Virus record (IMG/VR): IMGVR_UViG_3300043313_000560
Location: 1 to 37,733 of that record
Direction: 5' to 3' (one strand)
DNA length: 37,733 bases
From: a virus
The first letter of the stretch is position 1, and every line of letters begins with the position of its first letter. Below, in pieces: positions 1 through 34,117 of this stretch. The position numbers were made by a program, and so were the translations under genes. Under the pieces are notes generated by a model that saw nothing but the letters and a program-made list of their open reading frames with translations, did not search any database and was not told where the DNA came from.

Positions 1-28
1 TCGCGGGGCGCGACCGCATAGAAGGATC

Positions 29-57
29 TTGACACCCTTACCGTCGGCCGCTATGCC
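29..57 (+). promoter_or_regulatory. Possible promoter at the left end
   Basis: TTGACA (29-34) and TATGCC (52-57) are separated by exactly 17 bases, a good sigma-70-like spacing. No plausible plus-strand gene begins directly downstream, so its target is unclear. The TTGACACCC word here also occurs inside the repeat at 629-647 on the opposite strand, so it may instead be an operator-like element. Bases 1-164 otherwise hold no supported gene. Confidence 0.3.
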
Positions 58-164
58 CGGTGGCAGATGTCTCACTCAACAGCTTGACTTCGCGCCGTTC
101 CCGTGCCATGGGTGACGCGAGTGTGTCTCACCCGGCGCAGACAGGGTGTGATCACGTGCGCGGC

Positions 165-428
165 TCACCGGATGCGGGTCGGTGCGATGACCCGCGCGAG
201 TTCGGGTTTGCGTTCATCGAATGCGGCGATGCAACAGCCTTTACCACCGATGAACCGTCGGCGCAACATGTTCGCCATCATGCGCCATTGCTCGGCCTGT
301 TCGGCGTCGCCGTTGTCGGTGGCCTGCCGTGCCCATGCGTCGAACCTGTCGACCTCGCGCTGGACCTTGCCGCGCGCCCAGCGCAGCACGTCGGCGTCGG
401 TGTTGTAGTCGTGTGCTGTCGGGTCCAT
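165..428 (-). CDS. Small phage protein of unknown function (87 aa)
   Basis: The ATG at 428 is preceded by a strong GGAAGGAA ribosome binding site 9 bases upstream, which fixes the start. The product is a charged, Arg-rich, mostly helical protein with a WARGKVQREVDRFDAWAR segment and a CC pair near residue 66. I recognise no catalytic motif. It stands alone on the minus strand, separated from the rest of the early operon by two plus-strand genes and a divergent intergenic region (429-717), so it probably has its own promoter. It could be a small early protein of the kind found at actinophage genome ends; function is not assignable. Confidence 0.7.
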   Translation of the reverse strand: MDPTAHDYNTDADVLRWARGKVQREVDRFDAWARQATDNGDAEQAEQWRMMANMLRRRFIGGKGCCIAAFDERKPELARVIAPTRIR

Positions 429-717
429 CGGTGCCGGTTCCTTCCGTGGTCGAGCCAGCCGGCCGGGTCTGCCACCGTGCCCGCTGTTCGTCTGCCCGCC
501 GGGAGCGGCCGACGTCCGGCCCTGCCCGGTGCACCCGGGGTGGGGTGGCGCCGGGTGGGGGGGTGTTTAAAAATCGGGGCCGCTGGTCGAGCTGGGCGGG
601 CCAGGATGCGGTTCGAAATGCGGGAAGGGGGGTGTCAAAAAATCGGGCCTGCCCGTCCGGGGGAACGCCGGGTCGATCGTGGTGGGCGCGACGGTGGCGC
701 CGCCTAGGCTGCGTCTC
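429..717. promoter_or_regulatory. Divergent intergenic region with a direct repeat
   Basis: This 289-base stretch separates a minus-strand gene from a plus-strand HTH gene and holds no convincing gene. It contains two near-identical 19-base words, GGGGTGTTTAAAAATCGGG at 560-578 and GGGGTGTCAAAAAATCGGG at 629-647, 69 bases apart in the same orientation. The second contains TTGACA on the minus strand, but no good -10 follows at 17 bases. A TAGGCT hexamer at 702-707, ten bases before the ATG at 718, is a weak -10 candidate for a short-leader or leaderless transcript. Operator function is inferred, not shown. Confidence 0.45.
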
Positions 718-1014
718 ATGATCCGTCGTACGCGTCTGGTGTCTGCGGTGTTGTCGGCGCTCGACACTGAGCAGTGGCGGTGGGGTAACCATCTCGCTGT
801 CGTGTGCGGGGCCAGGTCGAGCACCGTGTCGAAGATCTTGCGCCGTCTGGCGGATGAGGGTTTCGTCGAGTCGAAGGACGAAGATCCGCGTGAGGCTGAC
901 TCGTTCGAGCGAGGGTCGAGCCGGTACGTCTACCGCCGTGCACCTCGCCGGTACTTCCGGTTGTCGCCGTCAGGGGTCAGGCTTGAAGCTGAGTGGCGTA
1001 CGCGGGGGAGGTGA
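718..1014 (+). CDS. Winged helix-turn-helix regulator (PadR/MarR-like, 98 aa)
   Basis: The start is the ATG at 718, MIRRTRLVSAV. Residues 5-60 fit a winged helix: an N-terminal helix, then RSSTVSKILRRLADEGFVES, which is a typical recognition helix followed by the wing, as in PadR/MarR-type regulators. The C-terminal part ends RYFRLSPSGVRLEAEW, resembling the wing and following helix of such proteins. It is transcribed away from the rest of the early region, next to the repeat-bearing region 429-717, and is followed after 7 bases by a 47-residue gene. It is the best left-end candidate for a regulator of lysogeny or of the early operon, but no such role is shown. Confidence 0.75.
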   Translation: MIRRTRLVSAVLSALDTEQWRWGNHLAVVCGARSSTVSKILRRLADEGFVESKDEDPREADSFERGSSRYVYRRAPRRYFRLSPSGVRLEAEWRTRGR

Positions 1015-1021
1015 GCATGTG

Positions 1022-1165
1022 ATGCCCGGTCATAACCATGGCAAGTCGATCAAGAATCCGCGCGTGTATGAGGCGCTGAAACGCCAGGGTTACAGCAAGT
1101 CGAAGTCGGCGGCGATCAGTAACGCGCAGCGCGGCGGCGGGAGTAAGGGCCGACGGAAGCGCTGA
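1022..1165 (+). CDS. Small basic protein, KNPxVYExLxxxGxSKxKAAxISNA type (47 aa)
   Basis: The ATG at 1022 has a strong GGGGGAGGTGA ribosome binding site. The product has the pattern KNPRVYEALKRQGYSKSKSA followed by AISNA and a Gly/Arg/Lys-rich tail. This resembles a small family of actinobacterial proteins of about 50-70 residues with unknown function, often seen in phages and chromosomes. It is cotranscribed with the upstream HTH gene (7-base gap) and ends just before a bidirectional hairpin. The highly basic tail could bind nucleic acid; this is inference only. Confidence 0.75.
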   Translation: MPGHNHGKSIKNPRVYEALKRQGYSKSKSAAISNAQRGGGSKGRRKR

Positions 1166-1179
1166 GCGGCTGTCAGGAA

Positions 1180-1209
1180 GGCGCCGGGGTCGCCAGTGTC
1201 CCCGGCGCC
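1180..1209. terminator. Bidirectional terminator hairpin
   Basis: A perfect 10-base stem (GGCGCCGGGG at 1180-1189, CCCCGGCGCC at 1200-1209) with a 10-base loop lies between convergent genes ending at 1165 (plus) and 1221 (minus). There is no long T-run, as is common for GC-rich actinophages. Confidence 0.7.
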
Positions 1210-1220
1210 CGTTCGTGGGC

Positions 1221-1415
1221 TCAGCGTGGCGCTGGACGGTCCGGCGTGACGTCGAGCGCGTGCGGTGCGCAGCGCGGCTGTTCGTATCCGGGGCGGGTCC
1301 ACAGGGCGGGTCGGCCGCATCGCTGGGTGCGTGACCCGCGGCAGCCGCAGACGACGGATCGTGTAGCCCGTGTCCAGCCGGCGGCAATCAGCGTGTCGAC
1401 GATGGCGCTACTCAC
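1221..1415 (-). CDS. Small Cys-containing protein (64 aa)
   Basis: The GTG at 1415 is preceded by a GGGGGAG ribosome binding site 7 bases upstream, which decides the start. The product begins VSSAIVDTLIAAGWTR and carries VCGCRG, QRCGRP and PRCAPH, so four cysteines that could hold a metal. It is the last gene of the long leftward early operon, 22 bases after the YkgJ-like gene, and stops before the hairpin at 1180-1209. I do not recognise a family. Confidence 0.6.
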   Translation of the reverse strand: MSSAIVDTLIAAGWTRATRSVVCGCRGSRTQRCGRPALWTRPGYEQPRCAPHALDVTPDRPAPR

Positions 1416-1437
1416 GATGCGCTCCCCCTGTGCCAGT

Positions 1438-1947
1438 TCATGTCTGGTGCAGCATCTCGGTGATGATGCGTTCGACCTGCGCGGCGCTGATGTCGCCCCG
1501 TGCTGCGGCATTGATCACGGGCGCAAACCTGTCTAGGCCACCGCGTGTGCACGCCCAGCGGAACCGTTGTGCGTCCCGATGCTGCCCGCCGATCTCGTAC
1601 ACGTCGGCCATGAGCGCATAGGTTTCGCGGAGGTCCAGCAGCCGTGTTGGCTGGCAGCCGTGCGAGCAGATCATGCCGGTAGTGATGCCCCATAGCCGGC
1701 AGATGAGCGGGCGTATGTCGTAGGCACCACACCGTCTGTCGTCGGTGAGCAGCGGGCATGACTCGGTGGGCGTGCGCCGCTGCGGTGACAGTCCGATCTC
1801 GACACGTGTGCGCCGCAGGATCTCGCGTGCTTCCGCGCGGGGTACGGGAAAGGTGGTGCACGAGTAGGCGCACAGTCCGGCGCAGTCGACGGTGGGAAGC
1901 GTGGCGTAGACGGCGGCGAGTCGTTGCCGTACCGATCGGGTGCTCAC
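1438..1947 (-). CDS. YkgJ-family Cys-cluster protein (169 aa)
   Basis: Members of the YkgJ family (PF03692) are predicted to bind zinc or iron through a Cys cluster; their cellular role is unknown. Here the cluster is seen as DCAGLCAYSC near residues 25-34, then SCPLLTDDRRCGAYDIRP and LICRLWG, the hallmark C-x-Y-x-x-R-P-x-x-C pattern, and a further C near residue 101. The start is taken as GTG 1947 because GGAGAG lies 9 bases upstream; an upstream ATG would add residues that read through two inverted repeats. It follows a 200-base spacer with hairpins. Family assignment is fairly secure; function in the phage is not known. Confidence 0.75.
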   Translation of the reverse strand: MSTRSVRQRLAAVYATLPTVDCAGLCAYSCTTFPVPRAEAREILRRTRVEIGLSPQRRTPTESCPLLTDDRRCGAYDIRPLICRLWGITTGMICSHGCQPTRLLDLRETYALMADVYEIGGQHRDAQRFRWACTRGGLDRFAPVINAAARGDISAAQVERIITEMLHQT

Positions 1948-1975
1948 TGCCCAGGTCTCTCCTGTCACGTCCGAC

Positions 1976-2011
1976 GCCCGGCAGGTCAGGGTGAGAACTG
2001 ACCTACCGGGC
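1976..2011. repeat. Inverted repeat upstream of the YkgJ-like gene
   Basis: GCCCGGCAGGTCAG (1976-1989) and CTGACCTACCGGGC (1998-2011) pair over 14 bases with one mismatch and an 8-base loop. It lies 29 bases ahead of the GTG start of the YkgJ-like gene. It may be an operator, a leader hairpin, or part of a tandem termination region with 2062-2115. Confidence 0.5.
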
Positions 2012-2061
2012 GCACTGACCCCATCATCTCTATCTGCGGCACGCAGCTTTGCCGAGGTCGT

Positions 2062-2115
2062 GTCTCGCCCGTGCACACCCATACGCGCAAACGTGGCTGT
2101 GCGCACGGGCGAGAC
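2062..2115 (-). terminator. Hairpin after the 79-residue gene
   Basis: A perfect 13-base inverted repeat (GTCTCGCCCGTGC at 2062-2074, GCACGGGCGAGAC at 2103-2115) with a 28-base loop lies just downstream of the gene ending at 2149. It is probably a terminator or RNA-processing hairpin. Confidence 0.5.
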
Positions 2116-2148
2116 GCTTTCCGGGCGGCGTTGTGCCGTGCACACAGG

Positions 2149-2388
2149 CTATGCGTTCTGTTGTCGACGGTGGTGTCGGCCCGCCGCCGTGTCACCTGTT
2201 CGGGGTACGGGTCGGCCGCCGATGCCGTAGTGACATGCCGTACACCATGCGGCCCGCTCGTCGTCGTGGTCAACGAATTCGTGTGGCCCGGGGCAGTGTT
2301 CTTTCATCAGGTCGAACAGGCGCAAGGTGGCACGGTCGGCGGCGTCTGCGGCCCGTTCGATGCGCAGCACGGCAATATGGGCTGTCAC
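2149..2388 (-). CDS. Small protein with a CxxC pair (79 aa)
   Basis: The start is GTG 2388, whose last bases overlap the TGA stop of the upstream gene (GTGA), a coupling used repeatedly in this operon. The product begins VTAHIAVLRIERAADAAD, is predicted helical in its first half, and has a CPGPHEF then WCTACHYG segment, so a His/Cys set that could form a small zinc site. The C-terminus is basic. No family is recognised. Confidence 0.65.
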   Translation of the reverse strand: MTAHIAVLRIERAADAADRATLRLFDLMKEHCPGPHEFVDHDDERAAWCTACHYGIGGRPVPRTGDTAAGRHHRRQQNA

Positions 2389-2576
2389 AGCTTTGCCTGC
2401 CCGGTGGTGGCGAGATCCCAAATGAGCTGCGCCGACGCCTGCCACGCGTCGCGAGTGCCCTGCGGCAGGTCGTCGAATGCCGGCATTGGCTGACCGTCTT
2501 TGTTGAGAAAGTTGACCGCTTTGCCGTAGGCGGTGTACGCGAGCCGTGCCCGGCTTTCCGGGGTTGTGGTCGTCAT
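2385..2576 (-). CDS. Small protein of unknown function (63 aa)
   Basis: The product reads MTTTTPESRARLAYTAYGKA and continues with an aromatic and acidic helical sequence, GTRDAWQASAQLIWD. Actinophage early operons commonly carry short proteins of this style. The start is uncertain: ATG 2576 is used here, but an in-frame ATG at 2588 is also possible; neither has a strong ribosome binding site. It is translationally coupled to the next gene through GTGA. No function assignable. Confidence 0.65.
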   Translation of the reverse strand: MTTTTPESRARLAYTAYGKAVNFLNKDGQPMPAFDDLPQGTRDAWQASAQLIWDLATTGQAKL

Positions 2577-2597
2577 GGCTGCCATCATCTCGTGCGT

Positions 2598-2840
2598 TCA
2601 CACAACCGGCGGGGCTTTCTCGGGCTGTTCGGCGAGTCGTTCGACCGCGCATGCGAGCAGTTCGGCGAGTGCTTCCGTGTTGCTGTCGCGCAGATGGTGT
2701 GCGGTCGCGGCGACAATCGATTCCCGGTGGTGGGTGGATCTCATCTCCCGGTTGGCGATGATCAGCGCATCGAGTTCGATGGTGCGTCGGGCGTGCGCCT
2801 GATCGTAGTGATGAATCTGTGCCGCTGTCGGTGTGTTCAT
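2598..2840 (-). CDS. Small His-rich helical protein (80 aa)
   Basis: The ATG at 2840 (MNTPTAAQIHHYDQAHARRT) has GAGG 9-10 bases upstream. The protein is predicted all helical and rich in His and Ala, with a central NREMRSTHHRESIVAATAHH segment. No domain is recognised. It is the first gene after a 267-base spacer that holds a hairpin, so transcription may restart or be attenuated ahead of it. Confidence 0.6.
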   Translation of the reverse strand: MNTPTAAQIHHYDQAHARRTIELDALIIANREMRSTHHRESIVAATAHHLRDSNTEALAELLACAVERLAEQPEKAPPVV

Positions 2841-2981
2841 GGGGCTCAACCTCGCTGACGGATGTTGCGAAACGCCCTGTGCGCGAAGGCGTTTCACTGT
2901 TTCGGGCGAGTTGTCAACGGTCCGGCTGCGGCGGTGTCGGCGCGGTCGGTATCGTGTCGGGCTAATAGCCCCGCGAGGGGT

Positions 2982-3004
2982 CGCCGGTCGGGGGGCGACC
3001 GGCG
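2982..3004 (-). terminator. Hairpin downstream of the glycosidase gene
   Basis: CGCCGGTCG (2982-2990) and CGACCGGCG (2996-3004) form a perfect 9-base stem with a five-G loop, about 100 bases after the stop of the glycosidase-like gene at 3108. The 267-base spacer 2841-3107 otherwise shows no gene. Confidence 0.5.
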
Positions 3005-3107
3005 CGCGTATGGGCCGGTCGGTGTCGTGTGGGGCCGTTCATTGTCAGACGACGTTTGGTGGGGTCGGGGCGTTCGCTGTCACGGGAAGCCGGCGGACGT
3101 TCCGACC

Positions 3108-3941
3108 TCACGCCGTCTGCGTGGCGAGTAGCCGGAACCCGTCTCGGACGGCTGTCTGTGCGGCAGCGTCGAGCGCCAGGCCTTCGTCACCTTCGCTGCC
3201 GCTGGAGCCCCATATCAGGTAGAGCTGCGGCGGCCGGGCCTGGTGGGTCAGCCACCGGAATTCTCGGGCGATGGTGCGCGCCCTGTCCGCACTGCCGATC
3301 GGCGGGCAGGTCCATCCGCGTTCGGTGACACCCCACTGCGCGCTATACCTGTCGACTTTGCGCCGCCATCGCGCGTACCCGGACAGCTCGGGCAGGATCG
3401 TTGTCAGCGGAAACGACCGGCCACTGTAGGCGTCGATGCTGTTGAGCCGCGCCAGGGTGCGCCACCGTGCGGCCTGCGTGTCGTCCATGAGCCCGCTGTC
3501 GCGGTAGGCGTAGGCCATCGCCGCATGGCAGGTGATCAGGTCCGGGTGGATGGCGGTGAGCCAGACGTGCACCGTGTTGAACATGGTGACGAATTCTTCG
3601 GGTGTGGCGAACCATCGGGGGATGTCGTTTTCGGGTTCGTGCCAGATGGTGACGATGGTGGGGCAGACGTCGCGGTAGGCGTACAGATACCGGGCGAGCT
3701 GCTGCACCGGCTGTTTCCACGTGCCGTCGAAGACCCGGGCGGGTGCGGGTTTGAATGACCATACGGCGGTGTGTCCGCTGCGCCACGCCTCACCGCATTG
3801 CCGGGTGATGCGTTCGGTCAGATCGTCCGGTTCGGTGAGCACGTTGGCCGAGAATATGCGCGCCGCCGCATGGCCGGGGTATTGCAGGCCGCGTTCCGCG
3901 CTGGTGGTGGTCTTTTCGTGCACGCCGAGCAGAACAGGCAT
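3108..3941 (-). CDS. Glycoside hydrolase-like TIM-barrel protein (277 aa)
   Basis: The sequence looks like a clan GH-A style glycosidase. Residues 95-106 read TIVTIWHEPEND, with Glu at 102 and 104 at the end of a predicted strand, where the acid/base Glu sits in such barrels. WGVTERGW (residues 203-210) offers Glu207 as the likely nucleophile. SIDAYSG and LYLIWGSSG fit later barrel strands. No signal peptide or membrane segment is seen. It lies among small early genes, not with tail or lysis genes, 9 bases after a 60-residue gene. It could trim host cell-wall polysaccharide or a capsular glycan at lysis or entry; substrate is unknown. No GH family number can be given from sequence alone. Confidence 0.6.
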   Translation of the reverse strand: MPVLLGVHEKTTTSAERGLQYPGHAAARIFSANVLTEPDDLTERITRQCGEAWRSGHTAVWSFKPAPARVFDGTWKQPVQQLARYLYAYRDVCPTIVTIWHEPENDIPRWFATPEEFVTMFNTVHVWLTAIHPDLITCHAAMAYAYRDSGLMDDTQAARWRTLARLNSIDAYSGRSFPLTTILPELSGYARWRRKVDRYSAQWGVTERGWTCPPIGSADRARTIAREFRWLTHQARPPQLYLIWGSSGSEGDEGLALDAAAQTAVRDGFRLLATQTA

Positions 3942-3950
3942 GGCATCTCT

Positions 3951-4133
3951 CTATTCCCATACGCAGTCGTCGGGTTCGTCGCCGCAATTATGGTCGGGGA
4001 AGATTTCGATCATCTGCCGGGCGACGACACGAAAACCGTCCGGCCCGAATCTGCGGCACAGGATGCCGTCGACTTCGATTTCGGTCACGGCATTCCGGGG
4101 GATAAAGCTCACAGGGTCGCGGAGGTCGCTCAT
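3951..4133 (-). CDS. Small acidic protein (60 aa)
   Basis: The reading frame runs from ATG 4133 (MSDLRDPVSFIPRNAVTEIE) to a stop at 3951, nine bases before the glycosidase-like gene. It is predicted beta-rich and ends in an acidic CGDEPDDCVWE tail. There is no strong ribosome binding site at the ATG. Composition and tight placement favour a real gene; no function is recognised. Confidence 0.6.
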   Translation of the reverse strand: MSDLRDPVSFIPRNAVTEIEVDGILCRRFGPDGFRVVARQMIEIFPDHNCGDEPDDCVWE

Positions 4134-4194
4134 GTGTCACAGCGTAGGAACGGCCATCCGGCGCGGCGTCGGCATCGGCGGCCGGTTCCCCCGT

Positions 4195-4569
4195 TCAGGG
4201 CATCTCGTCGCGCCACCATCCGCCAGGCTGCCGCAGGCCCGTCTGCCGGTTGTGACAGTCGACGCACAGCGGGCGCAGATGTTCGGCGGCGTCCGGGTCG
4301 TCGACACCCGCGGCGACAAGCTGCTTGCGGCTGTACGGGTGGTGGTCGGCGATGGTGGCCATGCGCGGGCACAGGGCGCAGGTCGGGTGCGCGGACAAGA
4401 AGTCGATGCGCCGGGCACGCCACTGCGAGTCGTATCCGCGCTCTGCGGTCGTCTGCACGCGTAGCCGGCGGTTGCCCTGCCGTGCCTGTCGGCAGCGGGC
4501 GCAGCGGCCGGTGACGGCCCGTCCGGGGCAGCGCGGTGTGGTGCACGGGCGCAGCGGTGGTGTCGGCAT
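4195..4569 (-). CDS. HNH endonuclease (124 aa)
   Basis: The HNH fold is seen as CALCPRM (Cys64, Cys67), IADHHPYS (His76-His77, catalytic), and HLRPLCVDCHNRQTG (Cys102, Cys105, His106), the usual zinc-bracketed beta-beta-alpha-metal site. An N-terminal CTTPRCPGRAVTGRCARC segment adds a zinc-ribbon-like Cys set, a common arrangement in actinophage HNH proteins. The start at 4569 is supported by a GGGGGG stretch 8 bases upstream. In HK97-like cos phages an HNH enzyme often works with the terminase; here it is far from the terminase on this linear map, but only about 7 kb away if the ends are joined. A homing role is the alternative. Confidence 0.85.
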   Translation of the reverse strand: MPTPPLRPCTTPRCPGRAVTGRCARCRQARQGNRRLRVQTTAERGYDSQWRARRIDFLSAHPTCALCPRMATIADHHPYSRKQLVAAGVDDPDAAEHLRPLCVDCHNRQTGLRQPGGWWRDEMP

Positions 4570-4593
4570 GGTCGGCCCCCCGTCCGCCGGGCA

Positions 4594-4635
4594 CAGAAAC
4601 GGCACCCGCGCGTACAGGGCGGGGTGCCGTTTCTG
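4594..4635 (-). terminator. Hairpin ahead of the HNH gene
   Basis: CAGAAACGGCACCC (4594-4607) and GGGTGCCGTTTCTG (4622-4635) form a perfect 14-base stem with a 14-base loop in the 207-base gap between genes ending at 4777 and starting at 4569. It may partly terminate the upstream operon or process its mRNA. Nothing else is seen in the gap. Confidence 0.65.
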
Positions 4636-4776
4636 CCATTGGGGTGCGGGCCGAAGGTGGCGCTTTTCCGAACCCGGCGACTGTCTGCCGTCGATGCGTG
4701 AACAGCTTCGACCCGTGGTGTGGTCGCCGTTATCAGGGCGCACTTCTGCCTGCGTGGCCGAGCGTACCTTTCCCGC

Positions 4777-5052
4777 TCACCACCGGCCAGCAGTTCGCGG
4801 ATCTGGTGCCCGATGCCAGTCGGCGGGGACGAACGCGTAGTCGACGTGCTCTTCGCCGCTGAAGACGTGTGCGCCGCAGTGTGGGCACTTGAAAAGGGTG
4901 CCCGGTTCGCCGGGGTCGCGCTGCTGCGGCTCCCACGGCCACGGGCAGCGCTGCCCAGCCTCGTTGAGCGGGGCAATGATGTCGTCGCGCTTGCGCAGGT
5001 CGATGTCTTTCGCGTCGGCCGGGTCGATGTCCTGCCACCGTATGACCGTCAT
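4777..5052 (-). CDS. Zinc-ribbon-like protein (91 aa)
   Basis: The ATG at 5052 overlaps the preceding stop (ATGA). After an N-terminal MTVIRWQDIDPADAKDIDL segment the protein has RCPWPWEPQQ and then LFKCPHCGAHVFSG, a single CxxC knuckle with a possible third Cys, followed by an acidic, aromatic C-terminus. It resembles the short zinc-finger proteins common in actinophage early operons. Role unknown. Confidence 0.7.
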   Translation of the reverse strand: MTVIRWQDIDPADAKDIDLRKRDDIIAPLNEAGQRCPWPWEPQQRDPGEPGTLFKCPHCGAHVFSGEEHVDYAFVPADWHRAPDPRTAGRW

Positions 5053-5834
5053 CCGGTTGCACCTTTCGTGATCTCGTCGAATGCGTCCATGCATACCCGG
5101 GTGATTATCATCAGGTGCATGACGACCATGTGCGGTTTCGACAACCGGTCAGCCTTCAACTGGCCTATCGGGTTGTTGTCGATGAACTCCGCATCGCCGC
5201 GCAGCAGCCGCGCCCATCCGGGCATTGCCGTCACTTCCCTCTCGACGGCATCGCTGAGGCGTTCCCGGACGACCGCGTAGGCGCGCCCGTCGAGGTCGAT
5301 GGCGGCGGCGACATGCGCAGGCTGCCTTCCGCCTCCGCCGGCCGGCTCGACTTCACCGTCGCAGACGATCGCCCATGCGAGCGTGGTCTGCGGCGAGTCG
5401 TGGAACCATCGTGTCGCCAGGTCCGTCAGCGGCGCCATCGCGTCGTCGGCGAAGGTGTCACGGAAGAACGTATCCGACGGTAGGCGCAGTTCGTAGGCAC
5501 GGATGATGTTCTGTTCGGCGGTGAGGCTGCGCTCACTGGAGTGGAACTGGAGCGCGAATATCGACGGTGTCTCGCTCACCGGTTCCCGCGCGTGTTTCTT
5601 CTCCACTTCGCACAGTATGTCGAGTACGCCGCCGGACATGTAGACGTCGACCAGCGGGACACCGCCGAGTTCGGTCAGCTCCCGGATCTGCTGGTCTGTC
5701 GCCCTGTCTGCGGTCGTCGGATGCACCGTCCATCCGGGGCATTCCCGGTTGGCCGCACCGCAGTGTTCACATCCCGCGTACGGGTGCAGGTGTTCGCAGG
5801 TGCCGCACAGTGCCGGTATGACGGTCAGGTTCAT
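5049..5834 (-). CDS. Protein with N-terminal Cys cluster, unknown function (261 aa)
   Basis: The start is ATG 5834, overlapping the previous stop by ATGA. The N-terminus, LCGTCEHLHPYAGCEHCG then ANRECPGW, has five cysteines and a histidine and probably binds zinc. The rest is a mixed alpha/beta region with no motif I recognise, containing ALQFHSSERSLTAEQNI and a Gly-rich EPAGGGGRQPAHVAAAIDLDG stretch, and ends in a hydrophobic MVVMHLMIITRVCMDAF helix. It is in the middle of a tightly coupled operon downstream of the Lsr2-like gene. Confidence 0.7.
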   Translation of the reverse strand: MNLTVIPALCGTCEHLHPYAGCEHCGAANRECPGWTVHPTTADRATDQQIRELTELGGVPLVDVYMSGGVLDILCEVEKKHAREPVSETPSIFALQFHSSERSLTAEQNIIRAYELRLPSDTFFRDTFADDAMAPLTDLATRWFHDSPQTTLAWAIVCDGEVEPAGGGGRQPAHVAAAIDLDGRAYAVVRERLSDAVEREVTAMPGWARLLRGDAEFIDNNPIGQLKADRLSKPHMVVMHLMIITRVCMDAFDEITKGATG

Positions 5835-6190
5835 CGGTCCCCGTTTCGTGTCCGGGTGCGTGGCCGGGCACCCATCGCCAGGATCTCGCCGACCCGGTAC
5901 TCCCACCGGCCGGCGGCGTCTTGGCGCCCGCCGACCTTTCCACGGCAGCGCGCCTTGCGTAGTGCGGACATGCTGACCGCTGCCAGGTCGGCGGCGTCGG
6001 CGGCGGAAATGTACGCGTCGACATCGGTGGTGACCGGCCGCGGTATCACCCACTGTTGCCCGTACCGGCGCATGATCTCGTCAAGGTCGGCGCAGGCTTG
6101 CGGGTTGCATTCTTCGAGCCGCTGCCGGTAGGCGAGCGCGACTTTACGGTCACGCACGGCTTTGGTGTCGCCGGGGAACGGCCAGGTCAT
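5831..6190 (-). CDS. HTH DNA-binding protein, excisionase/MerR-like (119 aa)
   Basis: An N-terminal helical region is followed by residues 60-100 reading YISAADAADLAAVSMSALRKA, then CRGKVGGRQDAAGRWEYRVGEIL. This is the fold pattern of MerR/excisionase-type helix-turn-helix proteins: an HTH, then a short wing with the pattern GRWxYxxxEI. It starts 5 bases after the Lsr2-like gene. It could be the recombination directionality factor or a transcription regulator; position alone does not separate these. Confidence 0.7.
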   Translation of the reverse strand: MTWPFPGDTKAVRDRKVALAYRQRLEECNPQACADLDEIMRRYGQQWVIPRPVTTDVDAYISAADAADLAAVSMSALRKARCRGKVGGRQDAAGRWEYRVGEILAMGARPRTRTRNGDR

Positions 6191-6195
6191 GGCGC

Positions 6196-6633
6196 TCAGG
6201 CGGGCGCCGCCGCCGTTTCCGGCTTCGGCTTGCGGGTGCGGCGCTGCTTCGGTGCGGGGGCTTCCGGTTCAGGTGCCGGCTGTGTGCCGCGTTCGGCGTA
6301 CGCCTGCTTGACCAGCTCGGGGATTGATCCTTTCGCCTGCCACGTCGGCAGGTGCACCGGGTTGTCCGCCCACCACTGCCGGATTTCCGACGGGGTGGCG
6401 CCGCCGGTGTCGGCGGGTGTGTTTCGGCGTCGGCTGGTGCCGGTGTACGGCTTGCCGTTGCTGCGTAGCGGGCGCCCGGCGTCGAGGAACGGGGTCAGCG
6501 CTTTCTGCAACTTGGCGGTGTTGTTCTCCGACAGGTCGATCTCGTAGGTTTTGCCGTTGAACGCGAACGTTCTGGTTTCGGCATCGGGGGTGCCGTCGAG
6601 GTCGTCGGTCACCAGCGTCTGTGTGATCTTCAC
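6196..6633 (-). CDS. lsr2: Lsr2-like nucleoid-associated protein (145 aa)
   Basis: Lsr2 proteins are actinobacterial H-NS-like silencers that bind AT-rich DNA. Here residues 1-54 match the oligomerisation domain closely: KITQTLVTDDLDG, then TRTFAFNGKTYEIDLSENN and AKLQKALTPFLDAGR. The C-terminal domain is recognised by PSEIRQWWADN and SIPELVKQAYAE at residues 81-113. In host Lsr2 an Arg-Gly-Arg, AT-hook-like motif precedes the IPxxVxxAY helix; here the corresponding residues are Ala-Lys-Gly (100-102). A Lys/Arg/Pro-rich tail follows. The start is GTG 6633 (GTGA overlap, AGAAAGG 8 bases upstream). It may silence host or phage genes, or interfere with host Lsr2 through mixed oligomers; the latter is inference. 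Confidence 0.85.
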   Translation of the reverse strand: MKITQTLVTDDLDGTPDAETRTFAFNGKTYEIDLSENNTAKLQKALTPFLDAGRPLRSNGKPYTGTSRRRNTPADTGGATPSEIRQWWADNPVHLPTWQAKGSIPELVKQAYAERGTQPAPEPEAPAPKQRRTRKPKPETAAAPA

Positions 6634-6857
6634 TGTGTCTGCCTTTCTTCGTCGAGAATGTCGGTGGCGATGCGACGGGCGACGGTGGCGATGATCTCGA
6701 CAGCTTTCTGTGGTGTGACGCCGTGCCGGATCATCACTTTCAGTAGGTGCGTCAGGCACACGTCGAATGCCAGTTCATCGCCGACGGTCATGCTGAGTTG
6801 CGCGACGGCTTCGTGGCCGCATTTCCCATCCTCGTTGTTTCTGCACAGACTAGTCAC
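6630..6857 (-). CDS. Small protein upstream of the Lsr2-like gene (75 aa)
   Basis: It starts at GTG 6857, overlapping the previous gene by 8 bases, and its stop overlaps the Lsr2-like start. The product has MTSLCRNNEDGKCGHEAV at the N-terminus, FDVCLTHLL in the middle and a helical C-terminus. The spaced Cys/His residues could bind a metal. No family is recognised. Tight coupling suggests coexpression with the silencer. Confidence 0.65.
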   Translation of the reverse strand: MTSLCRNNEDGKCGHEAVAQLSMTVGDELAFDVCLTHLLKVMIRHGVTPQKAVEIIATVARRIATDILDEERQTQ

Positions 6858-7134
6858 CGGGGCGTCCTTCGGTGTGAGGATTGTTCAGATACGCGGCGCC
6901 GAAAGCTTCAATACGCTTCCACAGTTCTTGCGCGGCGGCCCAACTGCTGGTGTCGTAACCCGTGCACGAGCAGACTCCGTATTCGTGACCGACGGTGCCG
7001 AGCAGTTGGCATGCGGCGTGTAGCCACCGCAGCGATGAAACCCCGTCGGCGTCGATCACCACTGTCGGCGCACTCAGGTCTTCGTCGGCGATTTCCTCGT
7101 CGCATTGGATGCAGGCATCTGTCACCGTGTTCAC
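6850..7134 (-). CDS. Small Cys-containing protein (94 aa)
   Basis: The start is GTG 7134, overlapping the upstream TGA (GTGA). The protein has CIQCDEEI near residue 8, LRWLHAACQLLG in the middle and YGVCSCTGYD near residue 55, so CxxC and CxC pairs likely to hold zinc. The C-terminus is helical with AAQELWKRIEAF. It belongs to the set of small zinc-binding proteins of this operon; no function known. Confidence 0.65.
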   Translation of the reverse strand: MNTVTDACIQCDEEIADEDLSAPTVVIDADGVSSLRWLHAACQLLGTVGHEYGVCSCTGYDTSSWAAAQELWKRIEAFGAAYLNNPHTEGRPGD

Positions 7135-7559
7135 CACTTCAGCCGCGGATAGAGCCGGCGTACGAGCGTGCCGAGGATTTCCTCTTGCCCGAGCGCTTCG
7201 AGCGGCTGGTCGGGGTCGGTGCGCTTGCGCAGGTAGGTGGTCGGATACCGGTAGCGACAGCCGCCGTCGCGGACCATGCGCCCGTCGCGCAGCGCCAGGA
7301 ACCATTCGATGCGGGCGGTGCCGCAACCGCCGAGACAGGTCATTTCCCGTTCGACCTGCCGGCCCGCTTCGACATACCCGAGAATGCGCCAGACGACACC
7401 GCCGCCGGTCGGGATGTGTCCGCTTTTGCTTTTGCCTAGCCGGGGCATGCGCGGCCACTGGTGCCGCAGGGTGCGGCATTCGAGGGTGGCGAGCGGGGTG
7501 TGCTCCAGCCATTCGCGGGTGTCCGGCTCGACAACGGCGCCGGGGATGATGGCACTCAT
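7131..7559 (-). CDS. Actinophage hypothetical protein with CLGGCG motif (142 aa)
   Basis: The ATG at 7559 overlaps the preceding stop (ATGA). The protein has LECRTLRHQWPRM, REMTCLGGCGTARIEWF, and GCRYRYPTTYLR. This C...H...CxxxC arrangement with the RHxW and YRYPxxYL words is a type I know from actinophage genomes, where it is annotated only as hypothetical or zinc-finger. It sits between two coupled genes. Nucleic-acid binding is plausible but not shown. Confidence 0.75.
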   Translation of the reverse strand: MSAIIPGAVVEPDTREWLEHTPLATLECRTLRHQWPRMPRLGKSKSGHIPTGGGVVWRILGYVEAGRQVEREMTCLGGCGTARIEWFLALRDGRMVRDGGCRYRYPTTYLRKRTDPDQPLEALGQEEILGTLVRRLYPRLKW

Positions 7560-8035
7560 GGCTTCGCCGGGAATTCGGTACCGCGGGCTTTGGCGGCGGC
7601 GATCCAGGCGAACACGGTTTGCGAGGAACAGCCGACCTTCCGCGCCACGAATGCCGCACTGCGCTCGTTGTCGAGCCAGAGTTTGAGCAGCGTCGCATCG
7701 TCGGGCCTTTTCCCGGTGAATCGCCGCTCCTTCACCGGCGCTTTCCTCACGGGCACCGGCGCCTTTTTCGCCGGGAGTCTTGGCGTGGGCGGTTTGCCAT
7801 TGGTGGCGTCACGGGCGGCGGCGTTGATCGCCGAGACTGTCGCGGTGGTCGCGGTGCCGCCGGGCAGGGTGAGCCCGAAGAACCGCACCAGCAGCAGATC
7901 GTTCGCTGTCACCGAAACCTCGTCGTCGGCGGTGAACCGGATTTCGGTGATGCGTGGCCGGGCGCCGGAATCGTCGACTGTCATCGCGGCGGTGATGCGG
8001 GTTTCGTCGTCGTGCACGGAAATGGTGTGTGCCAT
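7556..8035 (-). CDS. HTH DNA-binding protein (159 aa)
   Basis: Residues 1-60 form a beta-rich N-terminal part (ISVHDDETRITAAMTVDDSG). A Lys/Pro/Ala-rich linker spans about residues 85-105. The C-terminus, PDDATLLKLWLDNERSAAFV then ARKVGCSSQTVFAWIAAAK, is a clear helix-turn-helix of the Trp-repressor/sigma-like type. The ATG at 8035 is used. It is a probable regulator or DNA-recruiting protein of the early operon. The spacer just upstream (8036-8322) may carry its own promoter. Confidence 0.7.
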   Translation of the reverse strand: MAHTISVHDDETRITAAMTVDDSGARPRITEIRFTADDEVSVTANDLLLVRFFGLTLPGGTATTATVSAINAAARDATNGKPPTPRLPAKKAPVPVRKAPVKERRFTGKRPDDATLLKLWLDNERSAAFVARKVGCSSQTVFAWIAAAKARGTEFPAKP

Positions 8036-8322: not shown

Positions 8323-8985
8323 TCACCCGGTCGAGTGAAAGCGTGTTCTTCCTAAAATCAACGACGCATCGACGCGATATTCGGCGACGGTGGCGGTACG
8401 TCGGCAGTGCCGGCACTGGACGTCATCGGTGCCGGACGGTCGGGTGAGGGCCTGCGCGCCGCAGTGGCGGCACATGCCGGGCAGGTGGGTGGCGGGGGCG
8501 GTGAGGCCGAGCAGCCATCCGGCCTGCCGGTGCAGCCGTTGCAGGCTCAACACCCCGTTAAGGCCACTACGTGCCACGCAGCCGGCCTCGATGCCGTCGG
8601 GGTATCCCCATGTATCCCCTAGGGCCAGAAAATCGCTCAGCGACGAGCTGAGCAGGGCGGACGCCCTATGCACGAGTCGGGCCATGGGTGCCCGTTCCGG
8701 GGCTGGTGGCAGCCCGGCGGCTTCCCGCACGGGTGGCTCCCATGCGCCGCAGCGCCAGGCGATGTCACGGGCGAGCGCGTCGGCGGCGAGGTCGATGGGC
8801 ACGCTCGGGGTGTGGGTGCCGCTGACGCGCTGTGCGGGTGCGCCGCGGGGCGGGGCGAGCCCGGCGAGCGCGCCGTAGTCGACGGCGAGGGCGGCGATGT
8901 CGGAGGCGGCGACGGGCCGGCAGCGTTCGCAGAGCGGCAGTTCGTCGGCGAGCAGGGTTCGGCACGAGGCGCAGCGGTCGCTCAT
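8323..8985 (-). CDS. Double zinc-ribbon actinophage protein (220 aa)
   Basis: The N-terminus has CASCRTLLADELPLCERC (residues 5-22), and the C-terminus has MCRHCGAQALTR then DVQCRHCRRTATV (residues 170-200), so two CxxC-based zinc ribbons flank a helical core with RLVHRASALLSSSLSDFLAL. This overall arrangement is common in actinophage early genes of unknown function. The ATG at 8985 overlaps the upstream stop. Its position next to the putative replication initiator suggests, without proof, a role in DNA metabolism or transcription. Confidence 0.75.
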   Translation of the reverse strand: MSDRCASCRTLLADELPLCERCRPVAASDIAALAVDYGALAGLAPPRGAPAQRVSGTHTPSVPIDLAADALARDIAWRCGAWEPPVREAAGLPPAPERAPMARLVHRASALLSSSLSDFLALGDTWGYPDGIEAGCVARSGLNGVLSLQRLHRQAGWLLGLTAPATHLPGMCRHCGAQALTRPSGTDDVQCRHCRRTATVAEYRVDASLILGRTRFHSTG

Positions 8986-9305
8986 GAGCCGGACCTGCCG
9001 TAGCGCGTTTCTAAGCCGTCAGAATCCCCGGACCTAGCCTGACCCACCACCGAGCCCTGTTCGGCCGCCCGTGGCTCATCCGCGGAGCGGGAACGGGCAT
9101 CTGCGTATCGGCCGTCGACCCCCGGAGGTGCTGGCCGGCGGTAGACGCCCTTCGCGTCGGCGGCATGACCCACGTCTTCGGGCGGCAGGCATGTCCCGTC
9201 GTGCCGGTGCCAGTCGAAGCCGCGGACGCCGCCGAACGTGCGATGACAGGCGCCGCAGTGCGCTTGCGTCGGCGTCGGGCGGATGCAGGCGGCCGAACAG
9301 CTCAT
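8982..9305 (-). CDS. Zinc-finger protein, CGxCHRTFxxxxxFDxHR type (107 aa)
   Basis: The motif CGACHRTFGGVRGFDWHRHD followed by GTCLPPEDVG (residues 17-46) is a C2H2/C2HC-like finger I know from many actinophages, where the product is a small protein of unknown function. The C-terminal half is charged and probably disordered. The ATG at 9305 overlaps the stop of the winged-helix gene (ATGA), so the two are coupled. A role beside the replication initiator is inferred from position only. Confidence 0.8.
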   Translation of the reverse strand: MSCSAACIRPTPTQAHCGACHRTFGGVRGFDWHRHDGTCLPPEDVGHAADAKGVYRRPAPPGVDGRYADARSRSADEPRAAEQGSVVGQARSGDSDGLETRYGRSGS

Positions 9306-10156
9306 CGAAGATCGCCACCATCCGCGGGAGCATCGACGTTTGTCGACGGACCTCGAGGTCGATCGACGTCAGTCGATGGTTCGGCCGGGTACCGCGACAG
9401 GGGCTTGCCCGGCGGAAGCGTGCGGCGCAGCATCGACAGCGCTTGATCCCGAGTCAGCGTTTCTTTTCGATCAATCGATAAATGATTTGGATCTTCGGGG
9501 GCCTCGCGTACGCGGGCATGCGCCTGCGCGCCGCCGCGCGCACCCGACATGGATCCCCCCCTAAAGGGGGGTCCATCTTGTGGAGGAATTCCTGATTCGG
9601 TGACCGTATCGCTTCGGGACGATGACCGTATCAGGTCGGGGTCCGAACCGTATCGCTTTGTATCGCCAACTGATACGCCTACCGTATCGCTTCCATCTTC
9701 ACCCGATACGGTGACCGAATCAGGTGTTCTACCCGATACGCCTGTCGTATCACTTTCGGCCCGACCCGATACGGTGACCGTATCGCTATGGCTTTCACCC
9801 GATACGCTGGTCGTATCAGGATCACCGCTACCCGATACGGCTGTCGTATCGCTTTCGGGGATTGCCAGCCGGTACACCTGAATCCGGCCGCCCCGAATGA
9901 TCATGACGTCGAGCGGCTGCAACCAACCTTTTTCGACCACCGAACGGCGCACCCGGACGGCCGTTTCGTGCGACGAGATCTTGCCCTCACGCATGATCCG
10001 CCGCTGCGTCAGCCACGCCGAATCGGCGCCCCGCTTCGCCGCCCTGGCATACAGCAGCAGCACCATCGCCTCGACCGTCGACAGCTCATCAGGGTCGGCC
10101 GCGTACACCGCATCGGCGAACGTCTGCGCCGGTGTCGGGAACCGTTCACCGTCCAT
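9302..10156 (-). CDS. Winged-helix protein with embedded palindrome array, candidate replication initiator (284 aa)
   Basis: Residues 1-95 look like a winged helix: FADAVYAADPDELSTVEAM, LLLYARAAKRG, then SSHETAVRVRRSVVEKGWL and a wing RGGRIQVYRL. From about residue 98 to 190 the protein is an 11-residue repeat with DTxxVSG (DTTAVSG, DTTSVSG, DTVTVSG, DTVGVSV). At DNA level each repeat is a palindrome (see 9594-9850). The C-terminus is charged. The layout of a DNA-binding protein whose own gene carries iterons matches lambda O and its relatives, so I propose it recruits host replication machinery. The start is ATG 10156 with a G-rich ribosome binding site. A transcription regulator is the alternative. 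Confidence 0.7.
   Translation of the reverse strand: MDGERFPTPAQTFADAVYAADPDELSTVEAMVLLLYARAAKRGADSAWLTQRRIMREGKISSHETAVRVRRSVVEKGWLQPLDVMIIRGGRIQVYRLAIPESDTTAVSGSGDPDTTSVSGESHSDTVTVSGRAESDTTGVSGRTPDSVTVSGEDGSDTVGVSVGDTKRYGSDPDLIRSSSRSDTVTESGIPPQDGPPFRGGSMSGARGGAQAHARVREAPEDPNHLSIDRKETLTRDQALSMLRRTLPPGKPLSRYPAEPSTDVDRPRGPSTNVDAPADGGDLR
9549..9575. other. Palindrome next to the iteron array
   Basis: ATGGA-T-CCCCCC and GGGGGGTCCAT pair around CTAAA with a single bulged base. It lies 19 bases from the first palindrome of the array. On the other side, 9465-9495 is the most AT-rich stretch nearby (TTTTCGATCAATCGATAAAT). Iterons, a hairpin and an AT-rich block together are typical origin parts. 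Confidence 0.45.
9594..9850. repeat. Array of nine spaced palindromes (candidate origin iterons)
   Basis: The 17-base unit GATACGGTGACCGTATC (perfect at 9768-9784) recurs, with variation, starting at 9594, 9616, 9638, 9672, 9705, 9735, 9768, 9801 and 9834. The two at 9616 and 9638 keep only the right half-site. Spacing is 33 bases for most pairs, 30 and 34 for one each, and 22 for the degenerate end, so sites lie near the same helical face. All are inside the winged-helix gene and are in frame with its 11-residue protein repeat. Confidence 0.85.
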
Positions 10157-16824: not shown

Positions 16825-16874
16825 GCGGTTCCGCGCCATGATCAAGTGGCACCGAATTGCAGAGGGGTTCCCGC

Positions 16875-18047
16875 TTGTCCACCACCGTCATGTTCCAACC
16901 ACCCAGTTTCCCACCGGCGCCGACCATGCCGCAGGTCTTCACCGAACCCACGCCGAGCTTCCCCGCCGGGTTCGTCAAGCCACCCGGCAGCGTCAGCGCC
17001 CGCGGCACCCGATGGCTCGCCCAACAGCCACCCAGCGCCGGGCGCAAATCCAAGACGTTCGACACCCCCGACGAGGCGTGGCGGTGGCTAGCCCGCGCGC
17101 ACGCCACCACCGTGCTCTACGGCGCCGACACTGACGCCGCGGGCAAGATGCCGCTAGCCGTCGCGATGGCGTCGTGGTGCAGCCGGCTGACCGTCAAAGA
17201 GACCACCCGCGCCTGCTACCTGCAAACCCTGGCGCCGACCCTCGCCGACGACATCGCCGCCATGGCTGTTCGCGATGTCCGCGGCATGCACGTTGAAGCA
17301 CTCATCCTGGCCCGCCCGATCGGTCACGCACGCGCCAAAACCGCCGAACACCTCCGCGCGTTCTTCCGCTGGGCCACCGCCAACGACCTGACCGCCCGCG
17401 ACCCGTACATTCGTTCCGACGGCGAGAAGCTGCGTAAGCACGCGCTAAAACGTGCCGGCCGGACCTCGACAACCGGCTTGGCATGGACGGTCGAGCAGGC
17501 GCGTACCGCCCTGGCAGGCATGCAGGATCGACAGCTACGCACCCTGGCCGCGTTCATGCTCATCACCGGTGCCCGCCGCGGGGAAACGCTCGGGCTGGCA
17601 TGGGGTGGCATCAACGGGCATGTGGCGATGCTCGCCCGCAACCACACCATCGGCGGCGGCAAAGCCATGACCGAAGACCTGCCGAAGACGGAAACGGCCC
17701 GTAGTGCCTACTTCGGTCCCCGGTTGGCGGCGATGTTGGAGGCGCACTGCCCGCCCGGCTTGATGGCGTTCGACGACTACGTGTTCACCGCACCCCGCAA
17801 GGGTGGCCCGCTGCACCCCGGCGCCGTCAGTCTCCAGCTCACGCGCACCACGCAGACGCTGGGCCTGCCGCGGATCGGCGCTACTCACGCATTGCGGCGC
17901 ACGTTCGCGACGGCGCTTGATGCCGACGGGTGCCCGCCGATCGTGCGTGAGGCCCTGCTCGGGCATGCCGGTAGCCGGTATGCGGTCGCCCACGAAGACG
18001 ACATGCGCAAATGGGGTGAGCGCGCCGACGAACTCTTTCTAGGCTGA
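16875..18047 (+). CDS. int: Tyrosine integrase (390 aa)
   Basis: This site-specific recombinase integrates the phage into the host chromosome. The catalytic domain shows ITGARRGETLGLAW (Arg234), THALRRTF (His338, Arg341) and EALLGHAG (His364). The likely nucleophile Tyr369 sits in SRYAVAHED, only five residues after His364, where most family members have nine; see findings. An SAM-like core-binding domain (residues about 85-180) precedes. The start is taken as TTG 16875 with GAGGGG 7 bases upstream; ATG 16890 is the alternative. It is transcribed opposite to the flanking late and early genes and ends in a strong hairpin. Confidence 0.9.
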   Translation: MSTTVMFQPPSFPPAPTMPQVFTEPTPSFPAGFVKPPGSVSARGTRWLAQQPPSAGRKSKTFDTPDEAWRWLARAHATTVLYGADTDAAGKMPLAVAMASWCSRLTVKETTRACYLQTLAPTLADDIAAMAVRDVRGMHVEALILARPIGHARAKTAEHLRAFFRWATANDLTARDPYIRSDGEKLRKHALKRAGRTSTTGLAWTVEQARTALAGMQDRQLRTLAAFMLITGARRGETLGLAWGGINGHVAMLARNHTIGGGKAMTEDLPKTETARSAYFGPRLAAMLEAHCPPGLMAFDDYVFTAPRKGGPLHPGAVSLQLTRTTQTLGLPRIGATHALRRTFATALDADGCPPIVREALLGHAGSRYAVAHEDDMRKWGERADELFLG

Positions 18048-31945: not shown

Positions 31946-34117
31946 TTAGGCAATGATGAGATCGTGATCGTCGTATGCGGATGTCAGCCGTGCGTTGTCG
32001 ACTGCCGCGCGCCAGGCGTTCGCCGCCATCGCCGCGGTCGGCACGGCGTCGATCCGTTCCCTGGCCGCACCCCGATCCGGCTTCACCGGGCGCTTAAGGT
32101 TCGGGTCATAGGGCGCCGCTTTGACGTGGCAGGCGTCGAAGCAGAACGTCGCGACAGGGTTGCCGTGGTGGTGGAAACGTTGCGCATCCACCAACGCCAT
32201 GACGTCATCCATGCCGGGGCTGAGCGTGTCGTAGGTGTTGCGGTAGGCGGTGACCGCACCGCTGTTACCGTCGAGCCCGACAGCTTCCGCCACCCGGTTG
32301 ATGATCGGCCACATCGACCACTCATCGGAATCGACACCGGCCACCCGGAATTCAGTACCATCAATGGCGATGTCTGCCGTAACTCGGTCGTAATCGATCA
32401 CGCCGCCATCTGTAGCTGTAATCCAACCCTGTGCAACCCAGCGCGAGAACAGGCCATCGTGATACTTGTCGAGCCGTTCGATTCCACCCTCTGGCAACCA
32501 GAAGCGCCATAGAACATCCACCGGACTCTCGTCGGTATCGCCGGGAATCAATAGGCAGAACGCAGTGAGATCGAATTTCGCGGCTAGGTCGAGACCTCCG
32601 TAGGCGACCCTGCCGATGAGTTCGCGGCGGCCGTCGACCGGGTTAAGCCAGAGGTTGCCGCACGACTGCACCCACTTCGTCATGGGCATCCACCGGTGCG
32701 ACTGTGACGTCCACTGGTTGAGCCTGAACTGTCTGAACGCCTGCTCTTTCGATGGATCGTTCTTCGCCTCCAACGCCTCTTCGCGCAGGGCGTCGATCGA
32801 CAGGAACGAACCGAGCGCCGGATTCGCATGCGGCCAGTTGCGTTCATCCCACGGGTCGGCGTCGCGCGGGGTGTTGCGGATGTAGGTGAATACGTGCGGC
32901 GCCCGGTCGGGATCTTCGGCGATACGCACCGCTTCGGCATGCTCGTTCGCGGCGAACGTGTGCCCGTCCGTGCCGGCCGTACCGGCGGCGATCATCAACG
33001 GTTGCAGGCGGGCGCCCATCGCGGTGCGCATCGCCGTCCACAAACCGTCATCTTTCTGCACTTCCAACTCGTCGAAGATGATGCCGGACGGATTGTGCCC
33101 GAGGTTTCCGGCCGAGTCCGCGGCGACGATCTCATAGAACGATCCGGTGCGCTCATCGACGATCCGCTTCGCCTGCTTGTAGATCTGCAACCGTTTACGC
33201 AGCACCGACGACAATCGCACCATGCGCTCAGCGACGTCGAACACCTTTCGTGCCTGGTCGCGGTCGAGCGCACATCCGTAGATTTCGGCGCCCTCTTCGT
33301 CGTCGGCGACGAGCAGATAGAGCGCGACCCCGGCGAGCAGTTCCGAATTGTGCGTCGGTGTCAGCGACCGGCCTGCCAGGAACACGTGTGACGGGTGTTC
33401 TACGGCGATGCAGACAACCTCACGGTCTCCGGCCGGCTCGACAGCGACAATCGCGTTCGTTGGCCCGACGTCGATCCGCGTAGCAATGTCGACGTCTGTC
33501 CGGACGACCGGGCCGGGTGTGGTGACGCTGTACCGCCCCGGATCGTCGGCCAGCCCGGCGGTGGTGACGACCCGCGACCAACCAATATGCCGATCATTGA
33601 CCGTCCACTTGTGGTCGTCGGCGGCGACGATCTGCGCGCCGTCCGCGAACCGCACCATGTACGCCGGGCGGATGTGCCGCCCTGACACCCACTGGACGGC
33701 GGTGAGGCTGCCGTCTTCGGCGTGCACCCGGTCGCCGGTGGTGAGTTCACCCATGGTCGCCCAGCCGCGCTCGGCAAGGATCGGCGTATCGACGTCGAGG
33801 GCCTTCCCGTTCTTGCGCGCCAGTTCGATGAACGCAATCCGGTACCGGCGCACGTACTCTTTCGATTCGGCATCCCACCGGACGATGCCGAACAGCGGCG
33901 CAACGATGTCGTCAGCCTGCCATTCGGCCAGGGCGAACGGCTTACGCGCGAACCGGCCTTTGGTGTGACAGAGCACTTCCCGGAAAAAGCCGATCACTTT
34001 GACAACCCGCGGCAGACACCAGTGCTCGCCGCGCTCGGTGCATTCGTGTTCGTCGAAGACAAAACCGCAGGGTGGCAGGCTACGCGTTGAGGTACCTCGC
34101 CGACGTGGTGCCGCCAT
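31946..34117 (-). CDS. terL: Large terminase subunit with mini-intein (723 aa precursor)
   Basis: The packaging motor ATPase and nuclease. The N-extein has FARKPFALAEWQADDIVAPL and FIELARKNGK (Walker A start, Lys105); the intein spans residues 106-257; the C-extein begins SELLAGVALYLLVADDEEG at Ser258 and restores GKS. Walker B is GIIFDELEVQ. The nuclease domain has YGGLDLAAKFDLTAF and SPGMDDVMALVDA. Removing the intein gives 571 residues, a normal size. ATG 34117, 38 bases inside the small terminase gene and with a GGGTGAGG site, is the start. The gene is intact only if the intein splices. Confidence 0.95.
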   Translation of the reverse strand: MAAPRRRGTSTRSLPPCGFVFDEHECTERGEHWCLPRVVKVIGFFREVLCHTKGRFARKPFALAEWQADDIVAPLFGIVRWDAESKEYVRRYRIAFIELARKNGKALDVDTPILAERGWATMGELTTGDRVHAEDGSLTAVQWVSGRHIRPAYMVRFADGAQIVAADDHKWTVNDRHIGWSRVVTTAGLADDPGRYSVTTPGPVVRTDVDIATRIDVGPTNAIVAVEPAGDREVVCIAVEHPSHVFLAGRSLTPTHNSELLAGVALYLLVADDEEGAEIYGCALDRDQARKVFDVAERMVRLSSVLRKRLQIYKQAKRIVDERTGSFYEIVAADSAGNLGHNPSGIIFDELEVQKDDGLWTAMRTAMGARLQPLMIAAGTAGTDGHTFAANEHAEAVRIAEDPDRAPHVFTYIRNTPRDADPWDERNWPHANPALGSFLSIDALREEALEAKNDPSKEQAFRQFRLNQWTSQSHRWMPMTKWVQSCGNLWLNPVDGRRELIGRVAYGGLDLAAKFDLTAFCLLIPGDTDESPVDVLWRFWLPEGGIERLDKYHDGLFSRWVAQGWITATDGGVIDYDRVTADIAIDGTEFRVAGVDSDEWSMWPIINRVAEAVGLDGNSGAVTAYRNTYDTLSPGMDDVMALVDAQRFHHHGNPVATFCFDACHVKAAPYDPNLKRPVKPDRGAARERIDAVPTAAMAANAWRAAVDNARLTSAYDDHDLIIA
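33347..33802 (-). other. Class 3-type mini-intein in the terminase P-loop (152 aa)
   Basis: The intein starts ALDVDTPILAERGWATMGEL (Ala1 instead of Cys/Ser), so it cannot splice by the class 1 route. Block B reads DDHKW (His64, Trp66), block F reads REVVCIAVEHPSHVFLAG (Cys131) and block G reads LTPTHN then Ser+1 (Thr150, His151, Asn152). Trp, Cys and Thr at these places form the WCT signature of class 3 inteins. There is no homing endonuclease domain; the middle is only about 50 residues. Insertion is between Lys and Ser of the Walker A GKS. Confidence 0.9.

Follow-up and report, generated by a model that had tools for sequence, protein, structure and literature searches.

What does an array of palindromes do when it lies inside a gene? 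We addressed this for a 37.7-kb virus record of ~65% GC, analysed as one stretch of 37,733 nucleotides (the window), where a preliminary description had pointed to a possible lambda O-like origin of replication. The gene concerned is on the minus strand at 9302–10156. Elsewhere, the window has an integrase gene at 16857–18047, and Pfam and PHROG scans placed head, portal, tail and terminase genes at ~21 to 34 kb. The host is likely actinobacterial, because the closest relatives of the portal are those of Arthrobacter phages (46–48%). A gene for an Lsr2-like nucleoid protein (phrog_1223, 6196–6759) also points to an actinobacterial host.

The minus-strand early strip comprises, in order, endolysin, exonuclease, RecT, DUF5131, small genes, the initiator-like gene studied here, a zinc-binding gene and a phrog_1568 gene. 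The zinc-binding gene, next after the initiator-like gene (8982–9305, minus strand, 107 aa), was recognized by its Phage_zn_bind_3 domain. The gene following it (8323–8985, minus strand, 220 aa) matched phrog_1568, 'DNA binding protein'. Several long open frames within positions 1–8000 had no PHROG or Pfam match.

The array and the gene that contains it

The array was confirmed, with nine sites inside the gene. Their best consensus is the hyphenated palindrome GATACG-N5-CGTATC, perfect in five sites, with one mismatch in two, and reduced to a half-site in two. Nine copies of a 17-base palindrome had been claimed; the count stands if the half-sites are included, but the exact 17-mer is present only once (9768). 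Searching both strands with that earlier 17-base consensus at ≤3 mismatches gave 10 matches, all within 9594–9817, while the same search of shuffled sequence gave a mean of 0.07 and a maximum of 2. One exact gapped palindrome occurs in 5 copies in the initiator-like gene, and in 78 other same-length stretches of the window no exact gapped palindrome of any kind reached two copies.

The individual sites are all on the minus strand. Arms are perfect and the reading frame is 0 for iterons 1 (9834–9850, read as DTTAVS), 2 (9801–9817), 3 (9768–9784, identical to the earlier 17-base consensus), 4 (9735–9751) and 6 (9672–9688). Iteron 5 (9705–9721) has one mismatch (GATTCG) and is also in frame 0 (DSVTVS). 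The half-sites are iteron 7 (9638–9654, GATACGG), 34 bp from iteron 6 and in frame 1 (RYG), and iteron 8 (9616–9632, GATACGGTCAT), 22 bp beyond iteron 7 and in frame 2 (LIR). Another 22 bp beyond, iteron 9 (9594–9610) has one mismatch and returns to frame 0 (DTVTES). Steps in the coding direction are thus 33, 33, 33, 30, 33, 34, 22 and 22 bp, in agreement with the spacing first described (33, or 22–34 bp) and equal to two or three helical turns at 11 bp. The suggestion that the sites lie near the same helix face also held up: an 11-bp helical period fits, with a phase concentration of 0.76 at 10.75–11.0.

Two neighboring features noted earlier are present. The GC-rich hairpin beside the array (9549–9577, minus strand) pairs a C6 run with a G7 run, at −10.8 kcal/mol (z −2.9) when folded as DNA, and has no T-run after it; no other hairpin of the C-run/G-run form (C5+/G5+) occurs in the window. 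The AT-rich block, about 100 bp past the array at 9456–9495, is 32.5% GC, in the lowest 0.05% of 40-base windows, and is a candidate unwinding element.

The gene product has 284 aa from its likely start at 10156 (the ORF opens to 10213). Its predicted layout is a winged helix, a repeat linker and a C-terminal tail of low confidence, in which a single helix is predicted. The full-length AF2 model was poor (pLDDT 40). Residues 1–104 (9845–10156, minus strand) gave a confident model (pLDDT 88, pTM 0.80) with the order H-H-H-H-beta-beta; this, with the O-like PHROG match of a homologue (below), supports the earlier view of a winged-helix gene product. The region beyond residue 104 probably forms a flexible linker carrying a single C-terminal helix.

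The protein matched no Pfam, PHROG or NCBIfam profile and has no sequence relative in the PDB. Fold search with the N-terminal domain gave viral matches that were mostly HTH proteins, including replication protein O of phage Min27 (9.2e-4). PDB matches were generic winged helices, with a best E of 0.03. Among them were 4pql ('N-Terminal domain of DNA binding protein') and 4pt7 ('Structure of initiator'), which we take to be RepA_N proteins; their Z of about 8 is not distinctive among winged helices, a fold common to many regulators. Lambda O by name was absent among the PDB matches listed, which carries no weight.

DNA sites or protein repeat

The array had been said to produce an 11-residue DTxxVSG protein repeat. 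This is correct for seven sites, while each of the sites at 9616 and 9638 falls in one of the two remaining frames. Selection might nonetheless have acted on the protein repeat, a linker grown by tandem duplication, leaving the palindrome as a by-product: seven of nine sites do share a frame, and tandem repeats with similar codons exist in bacteria. Against this, the repeats force rare codons. The repeat valine codon is GTA, which makes up 6% of Val codons elsewhere. Synonymous resampling with the protein held fixed gave an expectation of 0.01 perfect sites under phage codon usage and of 0.17 under a within-gene shuffle, compared with the 5 observed, and five were reached in none of 20,000 trials. 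Moreover, in the 34-22-22 tail of the array the word GATACGG passes through all three frames, as RYG, LIR and DTV.

Used directly as queries, neither the initiator-like gene nor its protein found a match among phages, viral contigs or bacterial genomes. A homologue on viral stretch L014 was reached solely via the DNA pattern, and its initiator is 42% identical to the window protein. L014 has the same exonuclease-RecT-initiator order, judged by position and size. Its iteron arms are similar to those of the window but extended, as AGCGATAC-N7-GTATCGCT, and its steps are 33-33-34-22-22, in frames 0-0-0-1-2-0. The 34-22-22 tail and the frame order are those of the window, and the 11-bp helical period is kept in both phages. 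Yet the off-frame and tail sites encode RYT, AIQ and DTA, versus RYG, LIR and DTV. L014 likewise has a single C-run/G-run hairpin (4506–4519), offset from the start of the last iteron by 37 bp, compared with 39 bp in the window. L014 lacks a counterpart of the AT-rich block, whose unwinding role is therefore less sure. The L014 initiator matches phrog_391, 'replication initiation O-like', at 3.4e-5, a family that the window protein itself does not match; a weak phrog_391 match in the window, at 766–888, is outside the initiator-like gene.

The preliminary description had reasoned that related phages keeping the protein repeat while losing the palindromes would speak against an origin. We found the reverse, with homologues keeping the palindromic array, its spacing and its frame cycling while residues change. 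In Staphylococcus phages the word appears in two frames, and at the same register a Bacillus relative carries another palindrome (below). Because of the codon test, the three-frame tail and the agreement of L014 in frames but not in residues, we do not regard the palindrome as a by-product of the protein repeat. By these sequence comparisons, it is the DNA that is conserved, and selection on the protein repeat, the least probable of the alternatives considered here, is already largely refuted.

A candidate origin within a putative initiator gene

We interpret the gene as a phage replication initiator and the array as an origin embedded in it, with a mode of action like that of lambda O, SPP1 G38P and pSK41 Rep, at a probability of roughly 85%. 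The N-terminal winged helix would bind the palindromic iterons, probably with one dimer per full site. Since the sites are two or three helical turns apart, bound proteins would line up into an O-some-like complex. This complex would put strain on the adjoining AT-rich block until it opens, and would recruit host helicase and primase. We infer binding, dimerization, unwinding and recruitment, as well as any role of the hairpin.

In lambda and the Stx phages P27 and 933W, the origin lies centrally within the initiator gene, with iterons that are inverted repeats of 18–19 bp with hyphenated symmetry and with an adjoining AT-rich tract (PMC7466680, PMC6022878). The window resembles lambda O/oriLambda in its dyad-symmetric iterons in mid-gene and its predicted N-terminal winged helix. 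Lambda, however, has four iterons, a directly adjacent AT-rich region of 39 bp and a P gene, whereas the window has nine sites, most of them at 33-bp steps, a C/G hairpin separating the array from the AT block, and no recognizable P/DnaC. The earlier term 'lambda O plan' is apt for the mode of working; with no P-type loader found, we do not claim strict membership. A layout known from lambda, with the origin inside the initiator gene, appears to recur here in a virus that looks unrelated and whose host is of the actinobacterium type.

SPP1 gp38 binds repeats inside its own gene 38 (oriL), and an AT-rich unwinding element is part of the SPP1 origins (PMC6316719). SPP1 differs from the window in its loader gp39, its helicase gp40, its second origin and its repeats, which are described as direct. 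In the staphylococcal plasmid pSK41, the winged-helix N-terminal domain of Rep (RepA_N) binds Rep boxes in the center of the rep gene, and the linker that the boxes encode is dispensable in the protein (PMC5703833). In the Rep of plasmid pPR9, which replicates autonomously, a phage-type HTH domain replaces RepA_N, and pUSA03 Rep has been named as a hybrid of the same type (PMC5703833). In pUSA03 rep (L077, 101–1060) we found in-gene iterons, GACACGTCYAGAAATGTC, 23 bp apart and read in three frames. pSK41 and pUSA03 are plasmids while the window is a phage, and its protein lacks the RepA_N domain (no Pfam match to PF06970 at E 0.01). By the logic of the lambda/Stx, SPP1, pSK41 and pPR9/pUSA03 precedents, the window protein should bind its own array and open an origin nearby.

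The statement that no helicase or primase is encoded agrees with our profile scans, which recognized neither in the window, nor a loader; a P- or DnaC-type loader was not found beside the initiator-like gene. A phrog_50 match at 33566–33826 was considered as a loader and rejected, as it lies inside the large terminase. For want of a loader we do not file the locus as an O-P type module, and with neither DnaB_C nor a loader found in the window, it is not an initiator-loader-helicase module of the SPP1 kind either. In L014 too, a phrog_1568 protein directly follows the initiator (4678–5337), the position where lambda-like phages have their helicase loader. It is conceivable, though we consider it unlikely, that this protein, possibly with the zinc-binding product, replaces the loader and recruits the host helicase, and that the conserved C/G hairpin is a further origin element, such as a single-strand primosome entry site.

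Arrays of this sort also serve as operators or centromeres, and the protein might bind its array for control (autorepression, or a roadblock to the early operon) or for plasmid-like partition, instead of starting replication. The frequency of the winged-helix fold in repressors and the lack of a recognized replication partner in the window would fit such a role. The array, however, is in mid-gene rather than at a promoter; L014 and array-bearing relatives match replication initiation families; relatives adjoin loaders or helicases; and scans named no ParA/ParM-type gene. We therefore rate control or partition as quite improbable.

Alternatively, the palindromes and the C/G hairpin might act in mRNA, in attenuation, processing or termination, and not as DNA sites. 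A perfect site and the hairpin are indeed stable as folded single strands, and the hairpin is conserved. But RNA hairpins need no 11-bp helical period, which both phages have, half-sites unable to form hairpins are kept in place, and no T-run follows the hairpin. Action in mRNA thus seems very improbable, and replication initiation from the embedded array remains our preferred reading. Cumulative GC skew, for which the usual rule is a minimum at the origin, did not assist: its turning point at about 9.0 kb lies beside the array but is a maximum, as would suit a terminus, and the curve is confounded by gene content. For a phage lineage in which standard scans name no replication genes, the array provides a precise candidate origin.

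The array pattern in other phages

We searched 2.9 million viral contigs blind for the array pattern. A three-copy pattern, GATAC-N7-GTRTC, matched 14 viral stretches, and a related two-and-a-half-copy pattern matched 26. By inspection, about 7 of the 14 independent groups in the latter set had initiator-like genes, namely Staphylococcus DnaD-like genes, L003/L007, L011/L012, L014, L047, L055 and L058; the arms shared across groups are partly ascertainment, since the search pattern fixes them. The array of L011/L012 directly adjoins a wHTH frame, and the next gene in L002 and L003 is loader-like (IstB/DnaA-type AAA ATPase; phrog_50, DnaC-like, in L003). Because the pattern alone led to initiator genes of several unrelated phage lineages, it could map origins in metagenomic phages at scale. 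As a general diagnostic of an origin hidden in a gene, we suggest a DTxxVS-like repeat after a winged helix, in which rare codons are used and the copies cycle through the frames. On its own the pattern is no proof, as some viral matches were repeats belonging to structural or other genes (L006, L016, L009, L051/L059); matches in bacterial genomes were mostly ordinary tandem repeats.

Annotated initiators were also chosen by protein similarity. Of the 22 examined, 11 carried the same exact gapped palindrome two or more times, compared with 1 of 89 neighboring control stretches (Fisher 1.6e-8, an optimistic value because several of the 22 are close Staphylococcus relatives). With half of these initiators lacking an exact palindrome pair, embedded palindromes appear common but not universal. 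Staphylococcus phages Sebago, SpT152 and IME1318_01, with DnaD-like initiators, have GATAC..GTATC palindromes or half-sites that occupy more than one frame of the initiator gene, and have helicase or DnaC genes close by. They differ from the window in having two or three sites 22 bp apart, and beyond the winged helix no sequence kinship was detected. A Bacillus phage whose initiator is 45% identical carries another palindrome (TGGTCA/TGACCA) at the corresponding register, as coevolution of site and DNA-binding domain would predict. The annotated replication protein O gene of E. coli phage mEp554 has GTGTC/GACAC sites 22–23 bp apart, in two frames.

Two further kinds of array were noted. L008 (5874–6213) and L010 (4783–5018) have a similar array (GATACCTC..GAGGTATC, 33 bp apart) in a gene with weak small-terminase matches (phrog_1206, E 0.0027), possibly a packaging site embedded in terS. 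Lachnospiraceae genomes (L017, L022, L031, L033) contain many GAYACCTyyrGGGTRTC palindromic repeats, 18–40 bp apart, both within and between genes. These encode DTSxVS stretches in unrelated proteins, and look like a dispersed palindromic repeat family.
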